From: Elainella sp. Prado103
GTDB taxonomy: Bacteria; Cyanobacteriota; Cyanobacteriia; Elainellales; Elainellaceae
Length of the DNA: 64,000 bases
Direction of reading: 5' to 3'
Assembly (NCBI GenBank): GCA_025454395.1
Contig: JALOOM010000021.1
Coordinates: forward strand, 62,001 to 126,000
Below are positions 51,911-59,548 of this stretch, piece after piece. Numbering within the stretch: position 1 is the first letter of the stretch; each line of letters opens with the position of its first letter. The notes beneath the pieces were generated by a model. The model did not search any database. It was not told the origin of the DNA and saw only the letters and a list, made by a program, of their open reading frames with translations. A program made the position numbers and the translations under genes.

Positions 51911-53473
51911 CTACTCTTCATCTGAGGATTTTTCCTGGAACCCTCGCACAATCCGGGCCAGTTCATTTTTTTCATCCACGCTGGCTCGGGTTGGTGATCC
52001 GCTGATGATCCGCTCAAAGTTACGGAATGAGTCTTTAATTTCGGGGCCATCACCACTAATAATATACTCTCGAATCCCCTTATCATGGGCTGATCCCCGC
52101 ATCTTAAACACGTTGATTGCACGAGCCATTTCACCGCGAATTTCCACGTACTGCAACAGAAGAATGGTGTCCGTGATCGTGGAAATGTGAGAATCCGTAA
52201 TGGAATGGGAGCCCATAAACTGATCCGTGGTGTTCGTGAAGAAGCCGGTGATTTCCTCCTGTTTGGCAAACCCAGTGACACCGATCACAAATTGGCGAAA
52301 GGCATTATTACTGACCCCCCTGGCTAAGGCAGAGAGAGAATCGATCGCAATCCGAGAAGGTTTAAATTCAGAAATCTCTGATTTAATAATTTGCAAATGG
52401 TCTTCTAGACCAGCCGACTCAGGATAGGCGCAGATGATTTTGAGTAGCCCCTGCTGCTCCAACTCTTCAAAGTCGATCCCCCAGGAATAGGCGTTTCGAG
52501 AAAGCTGGGCGCGTGATTCTTCGTAGGCAAACAAGAGGGCGCGTTCATTCACCCGGCAGCCATCCTGCAAAAATTTGCTCACCAACAGAGTCTTGCCCGT
52601 TCCGGTTGCGCCGGTCGCCAAAATAATCGAATCTTTGAAGAAGCCGCCACCACACATTTCGTCTAAAGTTTTCACCCCGGAAGAGACGCGCACATTGGAT
52701 GATCGCTGGGTCAGACGCATGGCTCCCAAAGGGAAGATATTAATGCCATTATTGGTAATCGTGAAGGGATATTCCCCTTTCATATGGGTGGTGCCCCGTA
52801 GTTTGAGAATTTCTACCGTACGACGACGGCGTTCTCCTTCTAGGACGTTACGGACGATCACCACATTGTCAGACACAAATTCTTCCACCCCAAACCGCGC
52901 CACCGGTCCATACTCTTCGATCCGCTCGGTGGTCATGATCGTAGTTGCCCCTACCTGCTTCAGGCGAGCCACCAGCCGAAAAATCTCACGCCGTACCACT
53001 GAAGCAGCATCATACTGCTGAAAGACGGCTGTCACTGAGTCGATCGAGACCCGTTTGGCTTTATATTTACGGATCGCGTATTGAATTCGTTCGATCAGAG
53101 CCGAGAGATCAAAACTGCCGATCACATCTTGCCCTTCCGGATCCGGTGAAGCATCCAGGATAAACAGCTTGCCTTCATCGACTAACTGTTGGAGGTTCCA
53201 GCCAAAGCTGTAGGCGTTTTTAATAATGTCGGCTGGGGACTCTTCAAAGGTGACAAACACACCCGGTTCATCAAACTGGGTGATGCCATTATAAAGAAAT
53301 TGCGTTGCCAACAGTGTTTTTCCGGTACCAGAAGTCCCGCTCACTAGCGTGGTTCGACCGATCGGCAACCCACCATGGCTGATGTCATCAAATCCCTCGA
53401 TCAGAGTGCGGATTTTTCGCACACCAGTGACGGCGGTGGGTAAATTCTGTTCATCCGGGCTGGCTTGGGTCAT
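51911..53473 (-). CDS. kaiC: Circadian clock protein KaiC
   Basis: KaiC is the hexameric ATPase, autokinase and autophosphatase at the core of the cyanobacterial clock. Both RecA-like domains are present: CI with P-loop GTSGTGKT (46-53) and CII with GATGTGKT (~287-294). The phosphorylation sites fall at Ser431 and Thr432 in SHISTITDT, the same numbering as in Synechococcus elongatus. The C-terminal A-loop and KaiA-binding tail (ERIISGSPTRASVDEKNELA) are intact. The length is 520 residues. kaiB lies 571 bp upstream, further than in S. elongatus. Confidence 0.97.
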   Translation of the reverse strand: MTQASPDEQNLPTAVTGVRKIRTLIEGFDDISHGGLPIGRTTLVSGTSGTGKTLLATQFLYNGITQFDEPGVFVTFEESPADIIKNAYSFGWNLQQLVDEGKLFILDASPDPEGQDVIGSFDLSALIERIQYAIRKYKAKRVSIDSVTAVFQQYDAASVVRREIFRLVARLKQVGATTIMTTERIEEYGPVARFGVEEFVSDNVVIVRNVLEGERRRRTVEILKLRGTTHMKGEYPFTITNNGINIFPLGAMRLTQRSSNVRVSSGVKTLDEMCGGGFFKDSIILATGATGTGKTLLVSKFLQDGCRVNERALLFAYEESRAQLSRNAYSWGIDFEELEQQGLLKIICAYPESAGLEDHLQIIKSEISEFKPSRIAIDSLSALARGVSNNAFRQFVIGVTGFAKQEEITGFFTNTTDQFMGSHSITDSHISTITDTILLLQYVEIRGEMARAINVFKMRGSAHDKGIREYIISGDGPEIKDSFRNFERIISGSPTRASVDEKNELARIVRGFQEKSSDEE

Positions 53474-54044: not shown

Positions 54045-54365
54045 TTAGTGAGACTCTTCGTTATCTTCCTCTTGCAACTCGTCATAAAGTAGGTCTAGCC
54101 CAATCAAAACTCGTTCTCGATCAGATAAATCCCCAATAATCTTCCGAACAGGGGGCGGCAAAATTTTGGCTAGGGTAGGCGTTGCCAAAATTTTGTCCTC
54201 TTCTGCAAGCTGTGGATTTTTGAGCACATCAATCACTTTGAGGGCGTAAACTCCTTGAAACTCCTTTTCCAGAATGTTGTTCAGCGTTTTGAGGGCACGC
54301 ACTGAGTTCGGAGTGTTGCCTGCCACGTAAAGCTTGAGGATGTAGGTTTTTTTCAATGGACTCAT
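54045..54365 (-). CDS. kaiB: Circadian clock protein KaiB
   Basis: KaiB is the fold-switching clock protein that binds KaiC at night, sequesters KaiA and signals to the output kinases. The 106 residues start [20 protein letters not shown] and contain the thioredoxin-like core with [20 protein letters not shown], followed by the acidic C-terminus of clock KaiBs. This fits clock-type KaiB and not a KaiB-like paralogue. The ATG at 54365 is chosen from family length; no Shine-Dalgarno precedes it. kaiA lies 108 bp upstream on the same strand. Confidence 0.97.
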
Positions 54366-54473
54366 GGAGGAGCAGAGAAGAACGCAAAGGGTAAAGGGCC
54401 GACAAGCTATCTTACTGGGATCCCACCCAGTCAATTCAATCCAGAAATACCCTACAGATAAAGTAGCAGGAAT

Positions 54474-55328
54474 CTATGATTCTCGTGGAATCGATCGACG
54501 GTACATCTCGCATAGGTGCGCTAGGGTGTCGATCAGGGTCAATCGATAATCCAATAGGATCTCATCATTCCGACCTTCCAGCCTGAGTTGTTTGGCAAAC
54601 TCATCCATCAGCTCCATGTGAATTTCCACAACTTGGGAAATTGGCACATCGGCAAAAAAAGCGATATTAACAAAATTATCGATCTTTTCGTTGAGGTGAG
54701 CCTCACGGGTGGAAAAGTATGCCAAGATAATTTCGCGATAGTCGGCTTTCAGTTGGCGCAACAATTCTTCGCGCTGAAGCGGAGTCATGTGACGCAAAAA
54801 GTTTTGAGGATTTCGTTTGTAGTAAACACCAAGATAGTCGAGCCGCTCCTTCAGCTTCTCGGCCAAACGCAGTTGTTGCGCCATCAACCGATGGGATAGT
54901 GAAGACTCTGAGGAAACCGCATCCTCTGGTATAACCGGATCGGGCTGAAGTTGGATAAATTTACTGATTGCTTGATCGATCGTCAGTCGGAGCTGGTTGA
55001 TTTGGGTAGTGGGCAGAGCAAGCAAGGCAGGATGATAAGCAAAACGGAAGGTTTCACCCACTGGCTCCACAATCACAGTGGGAATAAAAATAGCTTGGCG
55101 ATGTAAGCCGTCGAATAGGGTTTGCAGCTCTGGAATGGCTTGAACCACCAAACAATCGACATGAGCCGACCGCAAATAATCTAAGGTAGATTCTGGATCG
55201 CCAAATTGATGGCAAATATAGTGGTCTGAGCGGGTTTCAGCCTGATCCGTCTCTCCTAGATACGGAGAGAGCAATTGCGTAAACTCATCAGAGCCAGTCA
55301 AAATACAAATTGAGAGAACAGATCGCAA
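54474..55328 (-). CDS. kaiA: Circadian clock protein KaiA (full length, TTG start)
   Basis: KaiA stimulates KaiC autophosphorylation by binding its A-loops. This is a long-form KaiA: an N-terminal pseudo-receiver domain (residues ~1-135) and the C-terminal four-helix dimer domain (YLGVYYKRNPQNFLRHM, FFADVPISQVVEIHMELMDE, LAHLCEMYRRSIPRES). No ATG lies in a suitable place. The TTG at 55328 gives 284 residues, the length of the S. elongatus protein; another TTG at 55367 would add 13. It heads the kaiABC order. Confidence 0.93.
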   Translation of the reverse strand: MRSVLSICILTGSDEFTQLLSPYLGETDQAETRSDHYICHQFGDPESTLDYLRSAHVDCLVVQAIPELQTLFDGLHRQAIFIPTVIVEPVGETFRFAYHPALLALPTTQINQLRLTIDQAISKFIQLQPDPVIPEDAVSSESSLSHRLMAQQLRLAEKLKERLDYLGVYYKRNPQNFLRHMTPLQREELLRQLKADYREIILAYFSTREAHLNEKIDNFVNIAFFADVPISQVVEIHMELMDEFAKQLRLEGRNDEILLDYRLTLIDTLAHLCEMYRRSIPRES

Positions 55329-55790
55329 GGTCGGGGGAAAGGTGTTAAAGGTACGCCTACAGTACAAATATAGTCTGGAACGCGAATATAGTCCGGAGCC
55401 AGTTCAGTTAAAGCAATTGCAGCCCGGAATCCCTAGCGTCAGAGAGAAATCAGCGAGAGTCGCATGATGCCAGTCGCCTCATTGCTATTGTGGCGATCGA
55501 TCTGCCAAACCTGATGGTTCTGGATCGACGCTTTAACTAACGCCTGAATCGATCGCCGATAGCTGCCAGCGATCTTAGTCGAGAGAACCGGGATATCAAA
55601 CCTGTCGGACAAAACCTGGAAAACGGCTGGATGGATCGCTTGAAGCTCGCTTGACGAGAGGATTACAGTGGAATAAGTGATATAGAAATGTCAATAGCCC
55701 TAAAAATTCTTAACACTTATTGTAATTGAAAAAGCGCTTTTCACTCTAGCGAACCAGTCATAATTGATGGAAAGACTCAGGACTTCGATC

Positions 55791-55838
55791 GCTTTCCTTG
55801 CCATCTGCTTTCCTTGCCATCTGCTTTCCTTGCCATCT
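55791..55838. repeat. 16-bp tandem repeat, three copies
   Basis: gctttccttgccatct is repeated three times exactly. Confidence 0.93.
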
Positions 55839-55962
55839 ACAGTCACGCTAGCCAATTGGATCATGCCAGCCAGTTATCTCATGTCAATCAGTTGTGGCGT
55901 TGCAGCGAGTTGGATGATTGCAGTGAGGCGAGTGTACCTGTTTCTGGGAACGAGTGGGATTT

Positions 55963-56021
55963 AAGTATTTGGAATCTAAGTATTTGGAATCTAAGTATTT
56001 GGAATCTAAGTATTTGGATCT
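55963..56021. repeat. 15-bp tandem repeat, four copies
   Basis: aagtatttggaatct occurs at 55963, 55978 and 55993, with a shortened copy at 56008. Confidence 0.93.
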
Positions 56022-56245
56022 AAGTGCTTGGGATTTAAGGATTGCTATCACGACTATTCCCATATCTACTTTCTAGCTCGGCGGAAGACGAATGGATTCA
56101 GACGAGGCGATCCCACCATTCAGCTAGCCAAATCTCTGCGGAGTAACTGAAGCTTTGTTTACCTGGTGCCTTGCACACCGTACCCTCCAGATTTCTCAGG
56201 GTATTCGTACGTGACTCTCTTGCACTTTTTGGGTGTTGTTGTGGA

Positions 56246-59200
56246 ATGAATATCTCTTCTCTCAGAGAATTCATTGTATCAGTTCCGGCTCACTGCGAAA
56301 CTGACTCATTGATGAGGATATGGCACTGTTTTCAACGATCCCAGGTGGATCAGGTGGTCATTGTAAATGCCCAACAGTTGCCAATGGGGATTTTGCGTCT
56401 GAGCCGCTTGATGGCGAGTCTGGATTTCGAGCAACCGCTCTTAGATCATCCCACCTTCAACCAGCCAGTCAGTACCCTATTGCATTGTTTGGATGCTGCT
56501 GCTGTGTATGATGCGGATACTCCGCTTGACCAACTCTCTCAGCAAATTTATCGCTTGGGAGATCAACCGATCGTGCTGGTGGATCAGGCTGGACATTATG
56601 TAGGGTTGCTAGACCCCCTAGCCGTAGTGCAGGCGTGGATTCGGTGGAATAAGGCGCAACCAACCGAAAGCAAGCAGAAAAACAGCCAACAGGCAACTCA
56701 GCCTGGGCAGGATGAGCGCTTAGCGGGTAAGGCGATTTCCGGACGGAAACGAGTTCGATCGAGTGTGAATGCCTCTGAAGCACTGATTCCGGATCCATTG
56801 ATCGATGTTTTGGAACGCTTACCGTTACCCCTGATGCTGCAAACCTCGGCGGGTCGGGTGATTACTCAGAATCAGCTTTGGCGACAGCAGGTTGGATCGA
56901 TACAGCATCCACAACGCATTCGTAGAGCAGCGGCTCGGATCTTAGAAGCGGCTTTGTCTTGTAAAACGGCTAATGCCACCAATGCCACCAATGCCACCAA
57001 TGCCACAGGTAAAGCTCAACGGTTATCAGAAACGACCCATTGGACTGAAGCGGCAACCCGTTCTGCTTTACCCCGATCCAACCCATCTGATCATCAGGTG
57101 GGTACGAGTGTTTGCCACTATGGCCCAGAACCCAATACCTGTATTTGTGTTTGTCCAATGAAGAATGGGCAGGATCGGGTTTGGCAATTCATCAAAAGTC
57201 CCATGGGGATGCTACCGGCACGCTGGCAGCATTGGTCTGAGGAATTGCATCAAGATAGTTTAATGCCGTTCAAATTGGCTTCACTGAAGTTTACACCTGA
57301 CCCAGCCTGGCGCTCCCTGCTCCAAACTGAAACGCTGTGGTTGGTGCTGGCGCAAGATATTACCGAACAGCAGCAGGTCGCTAAAGAATTGGCGGCACGC
57401 AATGCCGATTTAGTACAGTTAAACCGTCTGAAGGATGAGTTTCTGGCCTGCATTAGCCATGAGCTGAAAACGCCACTGACGGCCGTACTAGGGATGTCAA
57501 GTCTGCTGAAAGATCAATTACTGGGCAATTTAAACGAGCGACAACTGCATTATGCCCAGTTGATCTATCGGAGTGGGCGGCATCTGATCGCCATCATTAA
57601 CAGCATTTTGGATTTGACAAGAGCCGAAACCGGCCAACTGGAACTGGCGATCGAATCTGTCCATTTGCCAACCGTGTGTCAACAGGCTTACGAGCAGGCG
57701 CAACAGCAGCAGATTGTGGAGTCTAGCTCTGATATGGAGTCTGTGGTTCGAGATTCAGAACGGCAGTTTCATCTTGAAATTCAGCCAGGGTTGCAGCAGA
57801 TTCTAGCCGATGAGCTAAGATTGCGGCAAATGCTCAGTAACCTGTTGTCTAATGCGATTAAATTTAGCCACCCTCAAGATGAGATGGGTTTACGAGTCGA
57901 GGCTTGGGAGGGTTGGATCGCATTTACAGTTTGGGATCAGGGAGTAGGGATCCCTGCGGATAAACAGCATCTGATTTTTCAAAAATTTCAGCAGGTTGAG
58001 CATCCTTTAACGCGGCAGTTTCGGGGAACCGGCTTGGGGTTAGTACTGACTCAGCAATTGGCCCATCTGCATGGGGGAGATGTTAGCTTTACTTCTATGC
58101 CTGGACAAGGGAGTCAATTTACCTTATTGCTGCCGCCTGCCCCACCCCAGTCCTGTCTTAAACCGTCGGCACCTCGAACTCTAGATTCCCAACGAACTCA
58201 GTCTACTGCCCAGCCAGAAGCCCGTAACCGTCTAGTGCTGGTCATTGAAGCGGAGTCTGAAGCCTTGGCGGCTCGCCTAGAACAGTTGGCTGAAATTGGT
58301 TATCGAGCAGTGATCGCTCGATCGGGCACTGAAGCGATCGAAAAAGCCCGCCGGTTACAGCCTGCGGCAATTTTGCTCAATCCCCGGCTGCCGCTCCTGT
58401 CCGGTTGGGATGTTTTGACGCTACTCAAGGCTGATCTGGCCACCCAAGACATTCCGATCGTCATTACTTCGGTGCGAGTGGAGCGTCATCAGGCGTATCA
58501 AAATGGAGCCGATCGATTTTTGAGTTTGCCGATCGATACAGGGCTCTTGCATCATTGTTTGTCGCAGTTGATTCATCCCCTAGAACCCAATTTGGCGGAT
58601 ACGATCGTCGATTTGACGGTCTTACATCTCTATGAAGGCGCTCCTTCGTTTACGCTGATCGCGGATCAATCGGCGGTCACTCAGGGGTTGAATCGGCTGC
58701 TCTACCCCTACCATTGCCGAGTTTTGGAGGTGGATGATCTCGAACAAGCTGATTTGTTGGCTCGGGTTTGGAAACCGGATGTGGTCTTGATCGATCACCT
58801 GGAAACCAATCCCACCATTTTTATGCAGCAACTCAGTCAAACCTCTTATCTGGCAGGATTGCCCCTCATTACCTTTTCTACCTCCTTAACAGAAGCCGCC
58901 AACAAAATTCCTGGCCTAGCGGTTTTTCCCTATTTGGCCAACGCAATGGCTGAAGCTCAAGCACCAGCGGCAGAGCGAATGTCAGAACCAGAGGTGACGC
59001 AATTGGTGCAAGTGATCCAACTAGCGGCTGGAATTCACTGGGTTCCGCAAATTTTAATTGTAGATGCGGACTCTCTCTCCCCCGCCCCCCCCCAGCAAGT
59101 TATCCGTCCGCCTGTACAGGCACTCATGCAATATCTCCAAACTGCCGGATTTCGTAGTACGGTCAGCCATGATGGGAGCCAACTTCTGAAGAGGTTACAG

Positions 59201-59548
59201 CGATTTGGGATTGACCTGCTGCTCCTATGTGTGTCGGGCAAAGAGTCCCCCACTGCGATGCTCCCGATCGTGGAAACGCTCCAAGAGCTGCCCCATCGAC
59301 CGATCGTTCTGGTTTGGAACTATCAATCCGTACCCCCAACTTCGGGTGACGGGGTTTCGGAGCAAGCCTTTCACGACGCTCTTGCTTCAGGACAACCCTT
59401 GGAATCATCCTCGGCTCCTACGGCCACCAGTGTTGATTCGCTCCAATGCTGGCAGTCGATTGCGACTACCATTCTGCCTGCTGAGACATCGGTTTTGCAA
59501 TTGCTATCGCAGATCAATCAGCTTCTTCTGAACGTTAATCACCCATAA
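56246..59548 (+). CDS. CBS-domain hybrid histidine kinase with three degenerate receiver domains
   Basis: The predicted protein has 1100 residues. Residues 1-~135 look like a CBS pair (CETDSLMRIWHCFQRSQVDQ, DQAGHYVGLLDPLAVV). A linker follows, with an NAT repeat from a 9-bp array at 56971-57006. The kinase core has the H-box FLACISHELKTPLTAVLGM (His ~405), N-box LSNLLSNAIKFSHP and G-boxes DQGVGIP and GTGLGL. Three receiver-like domains come next (~655-775, ~795-910, ~935-1045). The first has Asn in place of the phospho-Asp (AAILLNPRLP), the second keeps an Asp (VVLIDHL) but lost the Lys, and the third lacks both. It is divergent from kaiA. The start follows family shape. Confidence 0.85.
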   Translation: MNISSLREFIVSVPAHCETDSLMRIWHCFQRSQVDQVVIVNAQQLPMGILRLSRLMASLDFEQPLLDHPTFNQPVSTLLHCLDAAAVYDADTPLDQLSQQIYRLGDQPIVLVDQAGHYVGLLDPLAVVQAWIRWNKAQPTESKQKNSQQATQPGQDERLAGKAISGRKRVRSSVNASEALIPDPLIDVLERLPLPLMLQTSAGRVITQNQLWRQQVGSIQHPQRIRRAAARILEAALSCKTANATNATNATNATGKAQRLSETTHWTEAATRSALPRSNPSDHQVGTSVCHYGPEPNTCICVCPMKNGQDRVWQFIKSPMGMLPARWQHWSEELHQDSLMPFKLASLKFTPDPAWRSLLQTETLWLVLAQDITEQQQVAKELAARNADLVQLNRLKDEFLACISHELKTPLTAVLGMSSLLKDQLLGNLNERQLHYAQLIYRSGRHLIAIINSILDLTRAETGQLELAIESVHLPTVCQQAYEQAQQQQIVESSSDMESVVRDSERQFHLEIQPGLQQILADELRLRQMLSNLLSNAIKFSHPQDEMGLRVEAWEGWIAFTVWDQGVGIPADKQHLIFQKFQQVEHPLTRQFRGTGLGLVLTQQLAHLHGGDVSFTSMPGQGSQFTLLLPPAPPQSCLKPSAPRTLDSQRTQSTAQPEARNRLVLVIEAESEALAARLEQLAEIGYRAVIARSGTEAIEKARRLQPAAILLNPRLPLLSGWDVLTLLKADLATQDIPIVITSVRVERHQAYQNGADRFLSLPIDTGLLHHCLSQLIHPLEPNLADTIVDLTVLHLYEGAPSFTLIADQSAVTQGLNRLLYPYHCRVLEVDDLEQADLLARVWKPDVVLIDHLETNPTIFMQQLSQTSYLAGLPLITFSTSLTEAANKIPGLAVFPYLANAMAEAQAPAAERMSEPEVTQLVQVIQLAAGIHWVPQILIVDADSLSPAPPQQVIRPPVQALMQYLQTAGFRSTVSHDGSQLLKRLQRFGIDLLLLCVSGKESPTAMLPIVETLQELPHRPIVLVWNYQSVPPTSGDGVSEQAFHDALASGQPLESSSAPTATSVDSLQCWQSIATTILPAETSVLQLLSQINQLLLNVNHP

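Follow-up and report, generated by a model that had tools for sequence, protein, structure and literature searches.

Does the hybrid histidine kinase gene lying back to back with kaiABC in the cyanobacterium Elainella sp. Prado103 belong to the clock, or does it only adjoin it? The gene was found in a 64,000-nucleotide stretch of that genome (contig JALOOM010000021.1, positions 62,001 to 126,000, forward strand; hereafter the window), and an earlier, sequence-only reading had proposed it as a candidate for clock input or output on the strength of its position. The protein combines a complete kinase core with three receivers that have lost phosphorylation residues, its linkage to kaiA is conserved, and homologues that have lost ATP-binding residues keep the His motif and the second receiver. 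The proposal is thus partly supported, by the conserved linkage and by retention of the gene after the loss of kinase residues; the clock role itself, the partner, the direction of a phosphatase activity and the ligands are what we infer.

The kinase core and its three receivers

The gene is an open frame with an ATG start and no internal stop, and its product, 1100 residues long, is a HisKA-type hybrid histidine kinase with a phospho-accepting His, N and G boxes and an attached receiver fold. The core was described earlier as complete, and it is: HisKA and HATPase_c are both present, and His405, Asn536 and Asp564 each occur in 99 of the 99 unique homologues, window protein included, on which the residue tallies are based. 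H405, E406 and T409, found in 99/99 as well, correspond to E/DxxT/N, described as the phosphatase motif that follows the phospho-His of HisKA proteins (PMC11502775, PMC10723718). Residues 405 to 409 fit this motif, and a phosphatase activity is predicted from it.

Each of the three receivers bears out the substitution that had been ascribed to it, namely Asn in place of the phospho-Asp in the first, no Lys in the second and no phospho-Asp in the third. In receiver 1 the phospho-site is Asn712 (N in 95 of the 99 homologues, S in 2, D in 1 and a gap in 1), the acid pair is replaced by Glu668-Ala669, and Leu761 occupies the Lys position. Receiver 2 keeps Asp850 in 88/99 and has Phe894 at the Lys position, with no recognisable acid pair after strand 1 (LTVLHL) in the alignment. 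Receiver 3 has a single acid residue, Asp940 (91/99), Cys995 at the phospho-site (Cys in 77/99) and Leu1077 at the Lys position. Asp and Lys never occur together at the 290 ungapped receiver positions, which are the 297 of three receivers in 99 homologues minus the 7 gapped at the phospho-site. Read from these residues, all three receivers look unable to accept phosphate, and the loss appears as a property of the family. Some more distant homologues, outside the 99, have one residue or the other in receiver 1: Lys with S or N at the phospho-site in G085, G118 and G127, and Asp without Lys in G061, G066 and G040.

Receiver 1 is the only receiver recognised by Pfam in the window protein. In the C-terminal AlphaFold2 model (mean pLDDT 79, pTM 0.46), with the elements read by eye, each of the three domains appears to follow the (beta-alpha)5 order. 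The profile of receiver 2 matched response regulators in the PDB (6lgq, E 5e-5; KdpE, 6e-5), and that of receiver 3 gave a weak match to CpxR (E 0.003).

Linkage to kaiA and the loss of ATP-binding residues

Conservation of the kaiABC neighbourhood was the test that the sequence-only reading had set for itself, and the neighbourhood is conserved. The named loci consist of the best 80 of 306 relatives, many of them Nostocales and some with flanks cut by contig ends. In 75 of these 80, kaiA lies divergently just upstream of the kinase gene, and the exceptions include L082, which is near a contig edge, and L053, which has kaiC and no kaiA match. The other window neighbours rarely recur within the flanks (atpG and atpA in 3 loci, SMC and PRC in 8), so that the surroundings otherwise reshuffle. 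A class-wide set gave the same picture. It contains 145 genomes including the source genome, 128 with kaiA and 17 without, and a strict match (E 1e-90 or better) was obtained in 60 of them, all of which have kaiA. The kinase gene is divergent from kaiA, at most 6 kb away and on the same contig, in 56 of the 60; two of the non-adjacent cases, G044 and G062, lie near contig ends. None of the 17 genomes lacking kaiA has a strict match (Fisher p 9e-5, uncorrected for phylogeny). Furthermore, a set of 60 relatives, which overlaps the class-wide set, yielded 43 matches at 1e-100. The link between kinase and clock is more than the position of a gene in one genome.

The 68 kaiA-bearing genomes that gave no strict match were then all inspected next to kaiA, where contig ends cut several of them short. 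Seventeen of them carry a shorter divergent homologue (668-985 residues, stop to stop) in the same place, a count that leaves out the kinase of G095 as generic and includes that of G158 despite overlapping frames. A homologue therefore stands beside kaiA in 73 of the 128 sampled kaiA-bearing genomes (56 + 17, source genome included).

Fifteen of the 17 diverged homologues are pseudokinases, in which another residue stands at Asn536 and two or more of D564, G566, G568, G594, G596 and G598 are lost, to a varying degree; G040 and G057 retain Asn536, and the Thermosynechococcus-like pseudokinases, among them that of G064, which we take to be Thermosynechococcus, retain G566, G568 and G598. The His motif fared differently. 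His405 is present in 15/15 pseudokinases and E406 in 14/15 (missing in G158), position 409 is occupied by N (8), T (6) or S (1), and His405, Pro410, Thr412 and Tyr436 are invariant in the 57 aligned rows, the 15 pseudokinases included. In receiver 2, E828, Q834 and W842 are likewise found in 15/15 pseudokinases and in 57/57 rows overall. Among nine thinned pseudokinases, mean identity is 43% for the DHp domain and 43% for receiver 2, followed by the ATPase domain (31%), the PAS-like stretch (26%), the CBS pair (23%) and receiver 1 (22%), and it reaches 50% in the alpha1-beta2-alpha2 stretch of receiver 2, against 22% in receiver 1.

Five close pairs of pseudokinases have whole-gene omega values of 0.11-0.17, which indicate purifying selection and mark these as living genes by their substitution pattern. 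The DHp domain (omega 0.00-0.10) is the lowest domain in four pairs; in the fifth, the ATPase domain and receiver 2 (0.056) lie below it (0.070). A tree built from the columns outside receiver 1 and the ATPase domain requires three switches between the intact and the pseudokinase form, of which the starred branches force only one, several long branches making the placements unsure. Through the loss of kinase function, the His motif and pseudo-receiver 2 more than anything else have been kept beside kaiA.

Some further observations were made around these loci. On a metagenome contig (L053:118-2102), kaiC adjoins the kinase, and the space between the two shows no kaiA match. In G095 (L152:2710-6732), a short kaiA and a generic-looking histidine kinase of 1341 residues diverge from each other across 2.3 kb. 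Upstream of kaiA, at a distance of about 1 kb and in the same orientation, two S. elongatus-like genomes (L121:6162-6545 and L139:6159-6548) have a receiver-like frame of 128-130 residues. Eight genomes with a short KaiA (open frames of 129-202 residues; G071, G117, G126, G135, G143, G154, G160 and G166) all carry the adjoining kinase; a rule tying short, single-domain KaiA to the kinase was rejected, as it holds in 8/8 genomes of families f32 and f27 but in 0/8 of family f17, and G152 (f26) is also without the kinase. Receiver 1 keeps its phospho-site Asp in L032 and L118 (G037 and G061), the genus in which the gene has left kaiA; the corresponding rule, that a gene away from kaiA keeps this Asp, holds for G037 and G061, of one genus, and fails for L050, L052 and L063.

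The N-terminal half and the locus

N-terminal CBS domains had been reported earlier, and three lines of evidence back them. The Pfam scan of the window protein itself gave no CBS match; PF00571 was matched by 31 of 41 homologues, and the profile of the region matched CBS proteins in the PDB with a best E of 2.2e-12. The AlphaFold2 model of residues 1-392 (mean pLDDT 78, pTM 0.53), compared with CBS pairs, reached a Z of 14.7 to 2ef7 (root-mean-square deviation, rmsd, 2.4 over 126 aligned residues), and on this model the N-terminus has a tandem CBS fold.

The PAS-like stretch that follows, overlooked by the earlier reading, is assigned tentatively. Its core blocks are modelled with pLDDT 89-96, and confidence is low at 251-290 and 321-350; just 2 of the 41 homologues matched PF08448 (PAS_4), and the listed fold-search matches of the model were filled by CBS. 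This stretch contains a cysteine cluster in which C290 is conserved in 99/99 homologues, C299 in 85/99, C301 in 98/99 and C303 in 51/99, and which the more distant homologues mostly lack. The cysteines map to a predicted pair of strands or close to it, the block with C290 having a mean pLDDT of 57. The cluster may bind metal or act as a thiol site; that the whole family shares a metal site of four Cys was rejected, given C303 in 51/99 and the absence of the cluster from most of the distant homologues. Fe-S and heme PAS sensors bind a cofactor at conserved ligands, to which the conserved Cys would be the counterpart here. In the linker preceding the cluster, an in-frame 9-bp repeat, AATGCCACC, occurs 3.9 times (56972-57006) and encodes NAT repeats.

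As had been stated before, the kinase is divergent from kaiABC, being on the plus strand with kaiA, kaiB and kaiC on the minus strand (Table 1). Tandem repeats occur in the kaiA-kinase intergenic region, as a 15-bp unit in 5.5 copies (55962-56043) and a 16-bp unit in 3 copies (55791-55838). Outside kaiABC, the KaiB-like portion of the SasA model has one more match in the source genome (G000:C62:23764-23982).

Table 1. Features of the kinase gene and of the adjoining kai genes, with positions in the window
Feature	Position	Strand	Evidence
kaiA-linked hybrid histidine kinase, three pseudo-receivers, 1100 residues	56246..59548	+	open frame; HisKA, HATPase_c, Response_reg; start and end similar in homologues
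Tandem CBS domains, residues 1-139	56246..56662	+	PF00571 in homologues; PDB profile matches; model fold match
PAS-like stretch, residues ~183-375, tentative	56792..57370	+	strand/helix order in model
Cysteine cluster C290-x8-C299-x-C301-x-C303	57113..57154	+	conservation tally
HisKA (DHp) with His405, HExxT motif, residues 396-463	57431..57634	+	PF00512 E 1.2e-17
HATPase_c, residues 522-631, intact in window protein	57809..58138	+	PF02518 E 6.2e-28
Putative pseudo-receiver 1, residues 660-775, Asn712 at phospho-site	58223..58570	+	PF00072 E 6.9e-14; residue tally
Putative pseudo-receiver 2, residues 788-903, best-kept receiver in pseudokinases	58607..58954	+	model, profile matches, conserved residues
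Putative pseudo-receiver 3, residues 930-1100	59033..59545	+	(beta-alpha)5 order in model; weak CpxR match
Intergenic region kaiA/kinase, short tandem repeats	55368..56245		open-reading-frame list; repeat search
kaiA, divergent neighbour	54474..55367	-	PF07688 E 1.7e-59; PF21714 E 7.9e-21
kaiB	54045..54434	-	PF07689 E 6.3e-30; TIGR02654 above cut-off
kaiC	51911..53473	-	TIGR02655 1043 bits, above cut-off

A possible CikA-like role and its rivals

A clock-related role of some kind is probable for the kaiA-linked kinase, and the form proposed here is that of a CikA-like, clock-associated hybrid kinase. The pseudo-receivers, receiver 2 above all, would dock the kinase to a clock protein or regulate its core, while the His-containing DHp domain would be the effector and would serve a clock response regulator, RpaA being the likeliest, as its phosphatase or phosphotransferase. 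Metabolic or redox state would enter through the CBS pair, whose ligand may be adenine nucleotide or c-di-AMP, and, in a single large clade, through the PAS-like stretch with its cysteines. CikA, the closest analogue in function, is reported to be an RpaA phosphatase (PMC7766417, PMC6378743) and its pseudo-receiver to bind KaiB via the alpha1-beta2-alpha2 face (PMC12632262); this analogy, the fit to E/DxxT/N and the retention of the His motif and receiver 2 are the reasons why a docking phosphatase or phosphotransferase is favoured. Taken as a whole the statement is the leading explanation, though slightly less likely than not to hold in full. A bolder version is unlikely to hold throughout: the kinase would be a second CikA-like arm of the clock that docks on the Kai complex via receiver 2, dephosphorylates RpaA through its DHp domain, reads adenine or cyclic nucleotides through the CBS pair and thiol redox through the cysteine cluster, has turned into a dedicated, kinase-dead phosphatase in several lineages, the Thermosynechococcus-like ones among them, and may replace the missing pseudo-receiver of KaiA in Nostocales.

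Several observations weigh against the CikA-like proposal. A true SasA is encoded elsewhere in the source genome (548.5 bits). The kinase gene is not always with kaiA, as the fetched flanks of L050, L052 and L063 (7.7-10 kb) contain none of the kai genes, and in G037 and G061, of one genus, kaiA is on a different contig. No homologue was found beside kaiA in 51 of the 128 kaiA-bearing genomes, of which at least G054 and G091 were not judgeable, so that the homologue is not needed for a clock; the 51 include G046 and G065, which we take to be S. elongatus-like. Receiver 2 stands out in pseudokinases only, because the intact clade (46 thinned rows) ranks receiver 1 (63% mean identity) above receiver 2 (49%), and receivers in general conserve beta2-alpha2 for packing. 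The most conserved part of the intact clade is the kinase core (HisKA 82%, ATPase 80%). The decayed ATPase domains, moreover, still do something, since D522, G611, L629 and P630 are invariant in all 57 rows, pseudokinases included, and purifying selection persists (omega 0.06-0.19 in the five pairs). CikA and KaiA pseudo-receiver chains are absent from the PDB matches listed for receivers 2 and 3, and receiver 2 gave no match to the KaiA N-domain profile (probability 2%); in the fold search of the three-receiver model the listed matches were filled by receiver 1, so that absence there says little. Finally, RpaA is also reported to be phosphorylated by CikA, which in a later view may be a kinase too (PMC7766417).

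The conservation of the core would suit an ordinary signal-responsive kinase of a clock-related regulator, which autophosphorylates and passes the phosphate on, with pseudo-receivers that only restrain it and pseudokinases as late side-branches. In the main clade the kinase residues are intact in 99/99, and a CikA pseudo-receiver has been reported to inhibit autophosphorylation (PMC12632262). Such a kinase is nonetheless rather unlikely as the full account, for it leaves unexplained why pseudokinases persist next to kaiA, with conservation of their receiver 2 and DHp and an omega of 0.11-0.17. If, instead, phosphate chemistry were irrelevant, the protein could be a scaffold or allosteric partner of KaiA, KaiB or KaiC in which His405 is kept for fold or dimer contacts; three receivers that look inactive by sequence would agree with this, as would the loss of ATP-binding residues in 15 of 17 diverged homologues whose ATPase domain is still under selection. 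This explanation is improbable, however, in the face of four residues (His405, Pro410, Thr412, Tyr436) invariant in 57/57 rows, since fold alone would hardly fix a surface His.

It could also be that the kinase is a mere neighbour, held in place by a constrained divergent promoter region of kaiA and working elsewhere in the cell, as the genomes with the gene away from kaiA (G037 and G061; L050, L052 and L063) would suggest. We give this a similarly low probability, because adjacency persists (75/80 and 56/60) as other neighbours change, the decayed forms hold the same spot, and the kaiA-lacking genomes have no strict match (0/17, uncorrected for phylogeny). The CikA-like proposal would account for the retention of both the His motif and receiver 2.

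Significance and comparison with known systems

The kinase is of a known type, a hybrid kinase with pseudo-receivers; new are its unusual architecture and its natural pseudokinase branch. The clock is known mostly from S. elongatus, and that no homologue was found next to kaiA in the two S. elongatus-like genomes may explain how the gene came to be overlooked. In Anabaena PCC 7120 the divergent neighbour of kaiA is presumably all2883. That tag appears, in the excerpt consulted, in a published list of predicted CRP-regulated genes. Full-text searches on the gene and its clock setting, most subscription journals lying outside their coverage, found no description of the kinase, nor is it mentioned in the consulted parts of a 2025 pseudo-receiver review (PMC12632262), a 2026 redox review, a 2017 survey of clock components (PMC5520375), a 2021 study of kaiA evolution (PMC8113500) and a 2025 study of diel expression in Nostoc punctiforme (PMC12691664). 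The gene is a good candidate for an undescribed clock partner and, should it prove to belong to the clock, 73 of the 128 kaiA-bearing genomes in the sample hold a regulator that is missing from current models. KaiA of Nostocales lacks the pseudo-receiver, and how quinone is sensed there was left open by the kaiA evolution study (PMC8113500). The kinase offers a testable answer to that question. The natural pseudokinases, furthermore, let evolution separate kinase, phosphatase and docking roles, and the Kai proteins of Thermosynechococcus BP-1 are structural standards.

Like SasA, the protein is a HisKA kinase and would belong to the clock; SasA is one of clock output, and membership was rejected at 110 bits against a cut-off of 342 for NF006800, with a match that covers only the kinase core (381-630). 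HrmK (NF038297) was rejected likewise (272.2 bits, cut-off 725), and among the best 25 of 101 NCBIfam matches no other named kinase reached its curated cut-off. The N-terminal pseudo-receiver of KaiA, encoded next door, is also a receiver fold without phosphorylation, but its profile did not match receiver 2 (2%) and matched receiver 3 weakly (16%), so that descent of these receivers from it has no support; the KaiA C-terminal domain PF07688 is missing in the Pfam scan, which removes the kinase from KaiA and KaiA3.

Other systems resemble it in part. A histidine kinase adjoins the kai genes of Rhodobacter sphaeroides and was proposed as a carrier of redox signals (PMC5520375), but it is non-cyanobacterial, lies in a kaiBC operon and is likened here by description, not by sequence. 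The GAF-containing CikA-like kinases of Nostoc punctiforme have been proposed as alternatives to CikA in filamentous cyanobacteria (PMC12691664); those 12 were picked by their GAF and kinase domains, whereas the kai-linked gene has no GAF. PleD shares a tandem pair of receivers, and the model aligns with it over 207-214 residues, but PleD is a diguanylate cyclase and the two-domain rmsd of 12.6-14.1 Å leaves the arrangement alone alike. In ShkA of Caulobacter crescentus, as possibly here, a pseudo-receiver of a hybrid kinase controls the HisKA domain (PMC12632262), although ShkA senses c-di-GMP and has a working receiver. A pseudo-receiver that binds KaiB and quinone is a mark of CikA, as is a GAF domain before the kinase core. 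CikA membership was rejected, since Pfam, run over the full-length protein at E 0.1, showed no GAF: in CikA a GAF domain is combined with a single pseudo-receiver (PMC6378743), whereas the window kinase has two CBS domains, a PAS-like stretch, three putative pseudo-receivers, adjacency to kaiA and some pseudokinase forms. Both are nevertheless HisKA hybrid kinases with a C-terminal pseudo-receiver and a relation to the clock, and they are likely to be alike in how they work.

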